Part shown: positions 10,159 through 17,421 of the stretch, in pieces | How the letters are laid out: the number at the start of each line of letters is the position of its first letter | How positions within the stretch are numbered: the first letter of the stretch is position 1 | Assembly (NCBI GenBank): GCA_022827095.1 | Contig: JAJDTP010000005.1 | Location: 496,001 to 560,000, forward strand | Reading direction: 5' to 3' | DNA length: 64,000 bases | DNA from: Dehalococcoidia bacterium | GTDB taxonomy: Bacteria; Chloroflexota; Dehalococcoidia; Lucifugimonadales; UBA3495 | Translations under genes and position numbers: made by a program | The notes under the pieces: model-generated | What the model saw: only the letters and a program-made list of their open reading frames with translations | Told to the model about the DNA's origin: nothing | Database searches by the model: none

Positions 10159-10398
10159 TCAGGCTACCTTGGCGGTGACGCCGAAAGTGTCGACGTACAG
10201 GAATTCCCGTATGCGGCCCAGGGCGGACGCCGAAGCCGGCGGATTGTTGTAGAGCCATCGCTCCAGATTGCTGACGATGACGCCGGGCTCCAGCTCAATT
10301 GCGGGACGCCCCAGTCGTTCCCACCTCGCGATCATGCGAGCGGTGTCGGCCGGAACTGCCAAGTCCGGGTTGACTCTTGCTGCAGAATAAACGCTCAT
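10159..10398 (-). CDS. Small hypothetical protein, 79 aa
   Basis: A 79-residue protein of unknown family. ATG 10398 is preferred over the in-frame ATG at 10446 because the upstream extension is unlike a folded N-terminus. The visible pattern is a helical half (ADTARMIARWERLGRPAIE) followed by NLERWLYNNPP and a C-terminal strand-rich end. It immediately precedes the methyltransferase gene. An 8-bp inverted repeat overlaps its start codon, which suggests control at this point. No catalytic motif is visible. Confidence 0.55.
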   Translation of the reverse strand: MSVYSAARVNPDLAVPADTARMIARWERLGRPAIELEPGVIVSNLERWLYNNPPASASALGRIREFLYVDTFGVTAKVA

Positions 10399-10429
10399 TG
10401 TTCGACCCCATGTTCTGATTACGAACAAT
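10397..10429. promoter_or_regulatory. Inverted repeat overlapping the start of the 79-aa gene (operator candidate)
   Basis: ATTGTTCG (10397-10404) and CGAACAAT (10422-10429) form a perfect 8-bp inverted repeat with a 17-base spacer. The arm-to-arm centre distance of 25 bases is longer than usual for a single dimer, so it could be an operator or an RNA stem that hides the start codon (inference). Confidence 0.4.
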
Positions 10430-10485
10430 TGTACGGTGTATAGCACATAAGCGCAAGGGTCGCCGACGAGCTAAACCGGCGCGAT

Positions 10486-11229
10486 TCACTCCGTTGACAA
10501 TTGGTTCAACCAGGACTCGATCAAGTCGACCCCTCGAGCTCCCGCGCTAACGTGGGCGATGCGGCCCTGTTTGTCGATGAACACGTAGCTCGGCACGCCG
10601 CGGATCCCGTAGGCTCCGGCCAGTTGCGCCTGCGCGTCGTACACGTTCGGGAAAGTGAGTTCATTGCGTTCCACGAATTCCACGGTGGCTCCCTCGGTGG
10701 TGTTGAACTGGGAGACGCCGATGACATCGATGCCGGCGGCATCCAGCTTTTCCCGGTAAAGGGAGGCGACGGCGGGCAACTCCCGCCCACAGTGGGGTCA
10801 CCAGGGCGCCCAGAACGCCAGTAGCGTGGGCGAACCGTAGGCGTCTGGCAGCGAGAACTCGGAGCCATCCAGCATCTGGGCGTTGAATAGTATCGCCGGT
10901 TGCCGGTCTTCGGTCGTGGCCCTGGTCGGCGCAGGCCAGGGTGTGTAGGTGGGCTGCGGTCGCGGCGTGTACGTTGGCGCCGGAGTGTCGGTGGGTGGAG
11001 CGAGAGTCGGCGTAAGTGCCGGCGTTGGCGGGATCGTGGGATCCGCGGTGGGCAAGAGCGCCTCGACAGTGGCGCTGTAGTCGCCGGCTTTGGTTTCGAC
11101 TGGCGTTTGGTTGCACCCAATCGTCGCCGCGCACAGGGCCAGTGCGGAGACAACGAACATAAGGCGTTGCAAAAAACGACGGTTCACTCGTCCCGCGATA
11201 TTGAGTGTAGCGGACGTCCGGTGGTTCAT
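10486..11229 (-). CDS. TlpA-like thioredoxin lipoprotein, candidate selenoprotein (in-frame UGA, UPHC motif)
   Basis: Read as one frame, this encodes 247 residues with a TGA codon at 10800-10798 (residue 144). Upstream are a lipoprotein-type signal ending ATIGC, a Pro/Thr-rich tether (about residues 55-105) and the start of a thioredoxin fold ending FWAPW. Downstream the same frame continues PHCGRELPAVASLYREKL and GVPSYVFIDKQG (cis-Pro loop). TlpA/ResA-type proteins read FWAxWCxxCxxELP, so UGA replaces exactly the first redox cysteine, giving U-P-H-C. A hairpin fitting a bacterial SECIS follows. The best explanation is selenocysteine; a nonsense mutation or sequencing error is the alternative. 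It would act as an extracytoplasmic thiol-selenol oxidoreductase. Confidence 0.82.
10771..10800 (-). promoter_or_regulatory. Candidate bacterial SECIS element after UGA of the TlpA-like gene
   Basis: After the UGA (10800-10798), GGCGGG pairs perfectly with CCCGCC around a loop AGTTG (10787-10771 on the minus strand). The stem is 6 bp, the apical loop 5 bases with G in its second position, and the loop begins 16 bases after the UGA. These agree with the published general bSECIS model (stem of at least 4 bp, G within the first two loop positions, loop 16-37 bases from UGA). Confidence 0.6.
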
Positions 11230-13485: not shown

Positions 13486-14736
13486 ATGTCGCGGGTAACA
13501 ACATGGTACGACAGGAAGCCGTACCTTCACTTTGACTTACCTCTCAGCGAGCGCAAGGCGACTGAGTATGTTAGCGATCCGGAGCGGATAGCACGGCACC
13601 CATTTTATCCGTTCATCTCTTATACGTTAACCACTCCACGCATTAGAAAATCGCCTCCCGGTGGCTCTAAGCCGTTCGCCAATGAGCCTAAGGAGCGTCT
13701 CATCGCATATCCTGCCCACAAAGATGGGTACATATTTGCCTATTACAAGACAAAACTGGAGATCCCATACGAAGCATGGCTCAAGTCCAAAGGGTTGGAT
13801 AATACTGTGACGGCTTTCCGTCGTACTGGTGCGAACAATATCACTTTAGCGAAAAAGGCGTTTGGCTTTATTGCTGATAATCCCGGCTGCCAAATAGTTG
13901 TCACTGATGTCGAATCGTTCTTTGATAACATAAACCACCAGCAGCTCAAAGAGATATGGGCTCGGTTTCAGGATAGCGATTCGTTACCAAAAGACCACTA
14001 CGCTGTGTACAAGGCTATCACCAGATATAGCGTTGTAGAGCGTCATAAAATTTACAACCTGTTTGGCATAAGGATGTTCAGCGGTCGTAATCGCGACGAC
14101 CAACCGCTGCGGCTTTGCACACCGCAACAACTTCGTGACAAAGTCTTGGCCAGAAACCTTGTTAAGTCGAACCCGGGGCTACCGCAAGGTGTGGGTATAC
14201 CGCAGGGATCCCAGTTGAGCCCCCTACTGTCCAATATGTACATGGCGGACTTGGATGTGGCGATGCATGGATTCGTGAATCCAATTGGCGGAGCATATTG
14301 GAGGTATTGCGACGACATTTTACTGGTCATACCTGATAAGTATCGTAGTGATGAGCTGATGGGAAACCTAGACTCAGAGTTAGAATGCCTGTCGCTGAAA
14401 CGCAGTATCCCAAAAACGCAGATTATCGATCACGCTGAGCTATTTGCGGGGCGTCAACTACAATACCTAGGTTTTATGTTCAACGGCGTCGAAGCGGTCA
14501 TCCGCCCGTCATCAATCCATCGTTACCACCGGAAGGTGAAAAAGGCACTCCAAGCCGCCGTATCCGGCGCGACTGCGAGAGCGAGCGTTCCGGCCATGTT
14601 ACACCACTGCGCAAGAAAGCTCTGTACAATATGTACTCAAACCTGCCGGTACGCGGGAAAAAGATCAAATCCCGCAAGAAGCGGCAGAAATTCAGCGGCA
14701 ACTTCATTGATTACATGGCTAAATCTGCTAATGTGA
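13486..14736 (+). CDS. Defence-type reverse transcriptase, DRT2 (UG2)-like, frameshifted at C-terminus
   Basis: The frame encodes 416 residues. RT motifs in order are the N-terminal WYDRKPYLHFDLPLS, VVTDVESFFDNINHQQL (motif A, catalytic Asp), GIPQGSQLSPLLSNMYM (motif B), YCDDILLVIP (catalytic YCDD) and QLQYLGFMFNG. The YHFD-type start, YCDD centre, lack of a maturase/endonuclease domain and lack of retron-type VTG all favour the DRT2/UG2 antiviral group. That subgroup call is from memory of the family. After about residue 357 the frame turns into nonsense; the natural C-terminus continues in the -1 frame to 14813. Codon use and lower GC than neighbours indicate transfer. The start is the first ATG after the RNA region. 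Confidence 0.85.
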   Translation: MSRVTTWYDRKPYLHFDLPLSERKATEYVSDPERIARHPFYPFISYTLTTPRIRKSPPGGSKPFANEPKERLIAYPAHKDGYIFAYYKTKLEIPYEAWLKSKGLDNTVTAFRRTGANNITLAKKAFGFIADNPGCQIVVTDVESFFDNINHQQLKEIWARFQDSDSLPKDHYAVYKAITRYSVVERHKIYNLFGIRMFSGRNRDDQPLRLCTPQQLRDKVLARNLVKSNPGLPQGVGIPQGSQLSPLLSNMYMADLDVAMHGFVNPIGGAYWRYCDDILLVIPDKYRSDELMGNLDSELECLSLKRSIPKTQIIDHAELFAGRQLQYLGFMFNGVEAVIRPSSIHRYHRKVKKALQAAVSGATARASVPAMLHHCARKLCTICTQTCRYAGKRSNPARSGRNSAATSLITWLNLLM

Positions 14737-14813: not shown

Positions 14814-14839
14814 CCATTAAGAATGGAGGTCGTCCTCTA

Positions 14840-15000
14840 GAACGGACGCCCTCCGGGTGTCGATCACCCGTTGCTCGATGTTCTGCGGCACCTGCTCGTG
14901 GTGGTCGAACTCGAACCGGCAGGAGCCGGGCCCGCTGGTCATCGAACAGAAATCCCGGGAGTTCTGTAGCACCTCGGCCCGAGGAACTTCATCCAGGGAA
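14840..15000 (-). pseudogene. Decayed fragment of the C-terminal end of EF-G
   Basis: On the minus strand this region reads EVPRAEVLQNSRDFCSMTS and then FEFDHHEQVPQNIEQRVID, clearly related to the last 45 or so residues of the intact EF-G at 15394-17421 (EVPQSEVQRYSQDLRSMTG and FEFGHYEQVPQNIEQRVID). DNA similarity is also obvious by eye over about 130 bases. The rest of the gene is missing and residues such as the conserved Gly-Gly-Arg are altered. It lies between the RT gene and a small membrane-protein gene. It may be a duplication remnant or the footprint of an insertion at the end of an EF-G gene. Confidence 0.8.
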
Positions 15001-15046
15001 TGCACACGGGCCACGAGGCGTTGCTCGTGCATTGGCGAGTGTCTCG

Positions 15047-15393: not shown

Positions 15394-17421
15394 TTACGCC
15401 GTCGCCCCCTCCTTGGCCTGCTTGGCGGTGTCGATGACCCGCTGCTCGATGTTCTGCGGCACTTGCTCGTAGTGGCCGAACTCGAAGCGGTACGAGCCCC
15501 GTCCGCCGGTCATGGATCGCAGGTCCTGGGAGTACCGTTGCACCTCGGACTGGGGCACCTCCGCCTCGATCACGGTGTAACGGGTCTCCGGTACCATGCC
15601 CAGGATGCGGCCGCGTTTGCTGTTGATGTCGCTGATGATGTCGCCGGTGTAGGTCTCGGGTACCGTGACGTACAGCTTGACGATGGGTTCAAGCAGGACG
15701 GGAGACGCCTTGGTCATGCCCTGGCGCAGGGCCTGGCTACCGGCGATCTCGAAGGCGATGGGTTTGCCGTCAACCGGATGGGTGCTTCCGTCGTAGATTA
15801 CCGCTTTGAGGTCGACCACCGGGAAGCCGGCCAGCACGCCTTCTTTCAGCGTGTTGACGACGCCCTTCTCCACGGCCGGAATGAGTTCGCGCGGCACCCT
15901 GCCGCCCACGACCTCGTTGCCGAACTCGAACCCTTCGTCGCGGATCTTGGGTTCCAGCCGGAGCAGCACGTGGCCGTACTGGCCGCTGCCGCCGGTTTGC
16001 TTCTTGTGGCGGTATTCGGAGTTGGTGATCTGCGTGATGGTTTCCCGGTAAGGAACGACGGGCAGTTTGACGTTCAGGTTGGCGCCGAACTTGCGCTTGA
16101 TGCGATCGAGTGCGACCTCGATCTGCACCTCTCCCAGTCCGGTGAGTAGGCTTTCGCTGGTTTCCGGATTGCGGGTGAACTGCAGGCTCGGGTCGTCCTC
16201 GACGATGCGAGCCAGGGAAGTAGACATCTTGTCCAGGTCGGCCTGGGTGGCCGGCACCACAGCCAGCGAGTAGTAGCCCTTCGGGAACTCGATACCCGGT
16301 AGTGTAACCCGCGCATCGCTGGCGCAAAGGCTATCACCGGTCAACGTGGCCCCGAGTTTTCCGATGGCGCCGATGTCGCCGGCCACCACCTCGGGCACGT
16401 TGTCCTGGCTGTTGCCCTGGGGCAGGTAGAGTTGGCCGAGGCGCTCGGACTGGCTATGGTTGACGTTATAGGTTTCGCCGTTGGACTTCATTGTTCCACG
16501 GAATACGCGGAACATGGACAGCTTGCCCACGAACGGGTCCGACGTGGTCTTGAACACCAGCGCGGCAACCGGACCGGCCGCGTCGGCAGTCACTTCGTCG
16601 TCGCCCGAAGTCTGGGGGAGGTCAGCTGGGGACGGCAGGAAATCGCGAATGACGGCAACCAACTCGTTCACCCCGATGTCCTGGGTCGCTGAAGTGACGA
16701 GGATCGGTATCAGGTCGCTGTTGCGGATGGCTTCGCGGGCGCCGGCGGTCACCTCTGCGGCGGTGATTTCCTCGCCTTCTAGGTACTTGTCGGCCAAGGC
16801 ATCGTCCGACTCGGCCACCGCTTCGATGAGACGTTCGCGGGCCGCATCGAAATCTCCGATGAGGCCAGCCGGAATGTCGGCGGGCGGGTCGATCACGCTC
16901 ACCAGGCCGGTGAAGTCCTGCGCCTCGCCGATCGGCAGCTGGAACGGCACGCAGCGGCTGCCGAAGATGTCCTGCAACTCTTGGACGTTGCGCTCGAAGC
17001 TAGCGTTCTCGCGGTCCATCTTGTTCAGCACAAAGGCCACCGGGAGGCCCCGCTCCTGGGCCATGTTCCATGCCCGCTCCGTCCCGACGTCGACGCCCGT
17101 GGGGGCGGCAACCAGGATCACCGCCGATTCCACCACTCGCATCGCGGCGACCGCCTCGCCGAGGAACTCGTCATAGCCGGGGGTGTCCAGAATGTTGATC
17201 TTGCTGTCGCCCTCGCTGATGCGCAGCAGGCTGGTCTGGACGCTGGAAGACCGCCGGGTTTCTTCCGGTTCGTAGTCGGAAGTAGTGTTGCCGTCTTCCA
17301 CTCTGCCGATGCGGTTGATCACTTTGGCGTTGAACAGCATGGTCTCGGCGAGGGTAGTCTTGCCCGCGCCGCTGTGTGAGAGCAAAGCGACGTTACGGAT
17401 GGTACTGGCGGATACGGCCAT
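15394..17421 (-). CDS. fusA: Elongation factor G (EF-G-like translational GTPase)
   Basis: This 675-residue GTPase moves tRNAs and mRNA through the ribosome. The P-loop is SHSGAGKT (residues 15-22), G3 is LDTPGYDEF (about 77) and G4 is LNKMD (about 134). The C-terminal domains IV/V include GSGQYGHVLLRLEP and RGSYRFEFGHYEQVP. The SHSGAGKT loop (instead of AHIDAGKT) and shorter length place it with the EF-G2-type paralogues common in Chloroflexota and Actinobacteria. It may therefore be a second EF-G and not the main one. It sits 181 bases after RNase HI on the same strand. Confidence 0.93.
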   Translation of the reverse strand: MAVSASTIRNVALLSHSGAGKTTLAETMLFNAKVINRIGRVEDGNTTSDYEPEETRRSSSVQTSLLRISEGDSKINILDTPGYDEFLGEAVAAMRVVESAVILVAAPTGVDVGTERAWNMAQERGLPVAFVLNKMDRENASFERNVQELQDIFGSRCVPFQLPIGEAQDFTGLVSVIDPPADIPAGLIGDFDAARERLIEAVAESDDALADKYLEGEEITAAEVTAGAREAIRNSDLIPILVTSATQDIGVNELVAVIRDFLPSPADLPQTSGDDEVTADAAGPVAALVFKTTSDPFVGKLSMFRVFRGTMKSNGETYNVNHSQSERLGQLYLPQGNSQDNVPEVVAGDIGAIGKLGATLTGDSLCASDARVTLPGIEFPKGYYSLAVVPATQADLDKMSTSLARIVEDDPSLQFTRNPETSESLLTGLGEVQIEVALDRIKRKFGANLNVKLPVVPYRETITQITNSEYRHKKQTGGSGQYGHVLLRLEPKIRDEGFEFGNEVVGGRVPRELIPAVEKGVVNTLKEGVLAGFPVVDLKAVIYDGSTHPVDGKPIAFEIAGSQALRQGMTKASPVLLEPIVKLYVTVPETYTGDIISDINSKRGRILGMVPETRYTVIEAEVPQSEVQRYSQDLRSMTGGRGSYRFEFGHYEQVPQNIEQRVIDTAKQAKEGATA

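Follow-up and report, generated by a model that had tools for sequence, protein, structure and literature searches.

Bacterial selenoproteins of the UxxC type, annotated as thiol-disulfide isomerase-like proteins (cd02966), were first described from the Sargasso Sea (PMC1088965) and have since been tabulated alongside UGC-type TlpA and Prx-like UxxC families (PMC13188914). The published bacterial SECIS model has a loop of 3 to 9 nt, an upper stem of 4 to 16 bp, G in the first two loop positions, a spacing of 16 to 37 nt, and an MFE of at most -7.5 kcal/mol (PMC13188914). Related proteins are the ResA-like WAxxUGC motif protein (NF041054), the UGC-containing TlpA disulfide reductase family, and the cysteine-containing ResA of Bacillus (4nmu, 3c71) and StoA (3erw). 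TlpA-like UxxC selenoproteins are thus already catalogued, and the family described here is a genus-restricted addition to them that brings no new principle.

The window (the whole stretch of DNA analyzed, 64,000 nucleotides of one Dehalococcoidia contig) contains a gene whose product is almost certainly a functional selenoprotein of bacterial type. It is a thiol-disulfide oxidoreductase with the TlpA/ResA fold and with selenocysteine (Sec) as its nucleophilic active-site residue, and it is predicted to be exported and lipid-anchored. Its reading frame runs on the minus strand from an ATG at 11229 to a terminator TGA at 10488 to 10486. The sole internal stop, a TGA at 10800 to 10798, lies at residue 144 (context FWAPW-UGA-PHCGRELP), where a TlpA/ResA-like thioredoxin domain, here complete, has its first redox cysteine (UPHC). 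Frame, coordinates, internal TGA, and motif are all as described in the original prediction, whose proposal of Sec at residue 144 of a lipoprotein thiol oxidoreductase is supported by UGA conservation, Sec machinery, hairpin covariation, selection downstream of the UGA, and fold. Its further expectation, that standard gene callers would break the gene into two truncated pieces, is a reasonable one. The features are as follows.

10486..11229, minus strand: putative selenoprotein coding sequence (247 residues with Sec144 counted, then the TGA terminator) for a predicted lipoprotein, a TlpA/ResA-like thiol-disulfide oxidoreductase (Pfam matches).
11113..11229, minus strand: predicted signal peptide with probable lipobox, the putative lipid-attachment Cys being residue 39 (alignment and predicted N-terminal helix 17-37).
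10915..11112, minus strand: Thr/Pro-rich linker, TPTYTPRPxPTYTP, of low predicted confidence, presumably a flexible tether.
10489..10914, minus strand: thioredoxin/TlpA domain, complete predicted fold (pLDDT mostly 91-97; structural match to ResA 4nmu_D).
10798..10800, minus strand: UGA codon predicted to be read as selenocysteine, residue 144, first position of UPHC (homologue conservation and pattern scan).
10789..10791, minus strand: codon of the resolving cysteine of UPHC, residue 147, invariant in the homologue alignment.
10771..10787, minus strand: SECIS-like hairpin GGCGGG-AGUUG-CCCGCC, with the loop beginning after 16 nt (folding and covariation).

Cys39 is nearly invariant among homologues and follows a hydrophobic helix; the residue at -3 is non-canonical in some copies. 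Together, the N-terminal hydrophobic helix, Cys39, and the Pro/Thr linker suggest a lipoprotein located outside the membrane. When the frame is translated through the UGA, residues 110 to 232, a span that includes the UGA, match Pfam AhpC-TSA at 81.2 bits and Redoxin at 66.8 bits. An AlphaFold model (alignment of 21 homologues) predicts a complete thioredoxin fold with block pLDDT values of 91 to 97 from residue 111 to the end and a value of about 95 for the domain. The complete TlpA-type fold that had been proposed past the UGA is borne out by this Pfam span and predicted structure. A helix is predicted to start at residue 145, directly after the Sec. The best PDB match was ResA 4nmu_D (TM-score of 0.91 by target length; rmsd, 1.3 Å), and ResA also headed the profile search. 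No NCBIfam model cut-off was passed by the Sec protein, which scored 85.6 bits against the 170 required for the ResA model (NF002854) and 56.7 against the 300 required for the nearest Sec model (NF041054, WAxxUGC_long). As judged by Pfam, NCBIfam, and structure, the protein has a TlpA/ResA-type thioredoxin domain with Sec first in UxxC, which places it among the TlpA-like UxxC selenoproteins.

With the Sargasso Sea cd02966 proteins it shares a thioredoxin-like fold, Sec at the first position of UxxC, a downstream SECIS-like hairpin, and an origin in marine bacteria. It is set apart from them, by description, as a predicted lipoprotein of one SAR202 genus that has a Pro/Thr linker and is encoded one to three times in each genome. 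A ResA-like domain and Sec at the WAxxU position are common to NF041054, whose motif is UGC and whose model is longer (354 positions), whereas the window protein has UxxC (UPHC). In common with ResA and StoA, the window protein has the fold, the placement of the redox pair, a Glu behind the motif (aligned with that of ResA), a Pro ahead of the last strands, and a predicted extracytoplasmic anchoring; ResA has Cys where Sec is predicted here, and natural ResA has a different residue pair between its cysteines (3c71 is an engineered CPHC ResA). The Prx-like thiol:disulfide oxidoreductase selenoproteins resemble it in their PF00578 match and UxxC motif, but both sequence and fold bring the window protein closer to ResA than to the peroxiredoxins.

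All 14 genomes of the genus contain a match with exactly one internal TGA, at 1 to 3 copies each and 21 in total, and in every one of the 21 copies the TGA is at the same codon and the frame is intact afterwards (one copy, L028, ends at its contig edge). Protein identity to the window protein is 34 to 81% (full-length alignment). Among the relatives are bin87, which is a SAR202 bin, further bins from Chloroflexota/Dehalococcoidia, and one chromosome assembled as a single contig; nearly all of the genomes compared, if not all, are metagenome assemblies. Outside the genus, homologues in the same family and order have Cys at the UGA column. Homologues were found in 247 of 400 genomes sampled from Chloroflexota, and among the matches listed (down to an E value of about 1e-23) no TGA copy occurred outside the genus. 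One TAA case (G168) was seen among these listed homologues. At the DNA level, the pattern of UGA-xx-Cys plus the hairpin sequence occurred 20 times, spread over 14/14 genus genomes, and was found neither in 85 other genomes nor in a reversed control.

These counts bear on whether the gene is a pseudogene or a product of sequencing or assembly error, in which TGA stands for a former Cys codon (TGC or TGT) and the 3' half would be either nonfunctional or misread. A single base separates Cys from UGA, and the contamination of this assembly (3.79 Mb; 97.65% complete) is estimated at 4.24%. Against this, the same UGA recurs in all 21 copies, drawn from 14 genomes that were assembled separately and include single-contig ones, and sequencing error is practically excluded. 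Every genus homologue has UGA in place of TGC or TGT, and none has random stops elsewhere in the gene; a Cys codon at the site and random stops in homologues were what the original prediction had named as speaking against it. The sequence past the UGA is also under purifying selection. After the hairpin (codons +13 to +102), pN/pS was 0.17 among the five closest orthologues and 0.31 among 13 orthologues, similar to the part upstream of the UGA, so the downstream part behaves as translated sequence. With the covarying hairpin described below, these data make decay or error a vanishingly improbable explanation of the internal UGA.

The hairpin has 6 bp and a 5-nt loop with G in second place and U after it, and 16 nt separate the UGA from the loop; it agrees with the published bacterial SECIS model in loop, stem, spacing, and MFE (-11.3 kcal/mol for the hairpin alone). 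Compared with same-composition shuffles, the single hairpin has no extra stability (z, -0.4); single-sequence folding is thus uninformative, and covariation was used instead. In the 16 copies with a GAG codon, 96 of 96 stem cells are paired (100%), and pair 14-30 varies among GC (8 copies), AU (5), CG (2), and UA (1); this covariation score was reached by none of 500 shuffles. Column 14 is a second codon position, at which the residue after UxxC changes among Gly, Leu, Gln, and Ala, and column 30 is a third codon position that is silent in Ala codons. RNA pairing is the natural reason for a residue-changing column to be matched by a silent one, and it is this compensation of an amino acid-changing base by a synonymous one that makes the predicted SECIS unusually clear. 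Across all 21 copies, the outer stem is paired in 90.5% of cells; in CAG-type copies the register of the inner stem is shifted, mostly with a single base bulged out. The hairpin of the second-type copies (L075-L078) is shifted and mostly bulged. TTG is used for the loop Leu in 20 of 21 copies, compared with 20% elsewhere in these genes, a count taken over related copies and not over 21 independent events. The case for a SECIS element is thus made by covariation across 16 to 21 homologues and not by the single sequence. The 6-bp hairpin of the original prediction, with G second in the loop and 16 bases after the UGA, is present, with compensatory changes across homologues.

Machinery for Sec insertion, the lack of which would have counted against the prediction, is encoded in the genome in full: a tRNA-Sec with a UCA anticodon (ARAGORN), SelA at C5:779213, on the contig that contains the window (540.9 bits), SelB (355.5 bits), and SelD (376 bits; C20:25694-26614, minus strand). 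The selD gene likewise has an in-frame UGA, at the codon of its catalytic position, with a stable hairpin after it, and SelD itself is a predicted selenoprotein. Elsewhere in the genome (C14:1630-2139), a fragment of a SelB/EF-Tu-like GTPase with one in-frame TAG lies near a contig end. SelA was above the cut-off in 84 of 99 relatives, and the Sec trait is therefore probably older than the TlpA/ResA-like Sec gene family.

UGA readthrough as Trp is known in bacteria, and this general precedent is what would favor a reading of the internal UGA not as Sec but as Trp or Cys, whether a near-cognate tRNA or an altered genetic code were the cause. UGA nonetheless terminates the Sec gene itself and some of its neighbors, which speaks against a changed code; moreover, the genome has the UCA-anticodon tRNA-Sec, the site aligns with a catalytic Cys, and the hairpin covaries. 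We consider Trp or Cys decoding extremely improbable.

Under the favored reading, as a selenoprotein, we infer Sec insertion, export, and lipidation. Sec-tRNA-Sec would be made by SelA and SelD and brought by SelB to ribosomes at the UGA (10800-10798) through binding to the hairpin, whose stem starts 10 nt downstream; a UGA without such a hairpin would act as a stop, as at the end of the same gene. The protein would then be exported and lipidated at Cys39, with the Pro/Thr linker keeping the thioredoxin domain outside the membrane, where Sec144 would attack a substrate disulfide (or become oxidized) and Cys147 would resolve the intermediate. Any Sec gene can terminate at its UGA, and the upstream half of this one carries a predicted signal peptide along with a conserved linker, features that would suit a selenium-dependent switch, with a lipoprotein stub of 143 residues made under selenium shortage and the full enzyme under ample supply. 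Such a dual output is very improbable: in the predicted structure the upstream half stops in the middle of the thioredoxin core, so that no stable stub would be expected, and nothing indicates a function for one.

In a midpoint-rooted tree, the 20 full-length Sec copies form one clade (support, 99/96) once short, long-branch rows are removed, with a well-supported second type (L075-L078). The latter includes a tandem pair of divergent Sec paralogues (L077, 3942-5548, minus strand) with the motifs UERC and UGYC in place of UPHC. A first tree, which contained short, distant Cys rows, needed two changes; this was an artefact of one very long branch. The simplest reading, and a likely one from these sequences, is one Cys-to-Sec change in the ancestor of the genus followed by duplications. 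Taken further, a single such change in the ancestor of one SAR202 genus could stand at the origin of a growing family of surface seleno-oxidoreductases, with as many as three copies per genome and one tandem pair, that draws on an electron donor other than CcdA, DsbD, or VKOR, a scenario that we put forward only tentatively.

Thiol-disulfide oxidoreductase chemistry is established for the fold, and with its Sec144/Cys147 pair the protein is likely such an enzyme; that it reduces or isomerizes exported proteins, or deals with oxidative damage in that way, is a guess. Searches of the host genome for CcdA/DsbD (PF02683), DsbD_2, and VKOR found none (at 97.65% completeness, this absence is not proof), although the genome does encode ccm genes and several proteins of TlpA-like type. 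A selenocysteine form of ResA/CcmG that reduces the heme-binding cysteines of apocytochrome c would fit with ResA as best profile and fold match, with the aligned Glu after the motif, and with the CcmF and CcmH genes of the host. However, a Cys-containing TlpA paralogue (L105) adjoins CcmF/CcmH and is the obvious CcmG, the Sec gene lies away from the ccm genes, and the CcdA/DsbD search was negative. Because the Cys paralogue sits in the ccm cluster, a role of the Sec protein as the cytochrome c CcmG is unlikely.

The genes around the Sec gene (methylmalonyl-CoA mutase, methyltransferase, MaoC-like, and small protein) are syntenic in the closest relatives and give no clue to the function of the Sec protein; a PHROGs search gave no match. 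Just downstream, a 95-amino-acid protein (10159-10446, minus strand) without a Pfam match is syntenic in the four closest relatives, at 74 to 81% identity. A reverse transcriptase (13486-14736, plus strand), located between the genes for methylmalonyl-CoA mutase and EF-G, matches the anti-phage defense family Drt2 (376.5 bits). Beside it, a 71-amino-acid fragment (14817-15032, minus strand) is 65% identical over 49 residues to the C terminus of the EF-G-like gene at 15394-17421; it appears to be a partial duplicate of that gene, as if an insertion had duplicated or split the gene end.

A literature search found no publication that combined SAR202 with a selenoprotein. The genes described here add a well-supported selenoprotein family to SAR202, a major uncultured marine lineage, and offer a clear case of a Cys-to-Sec change retained through gene duplication, in an entire gene family that standard annotation would probably split in two.
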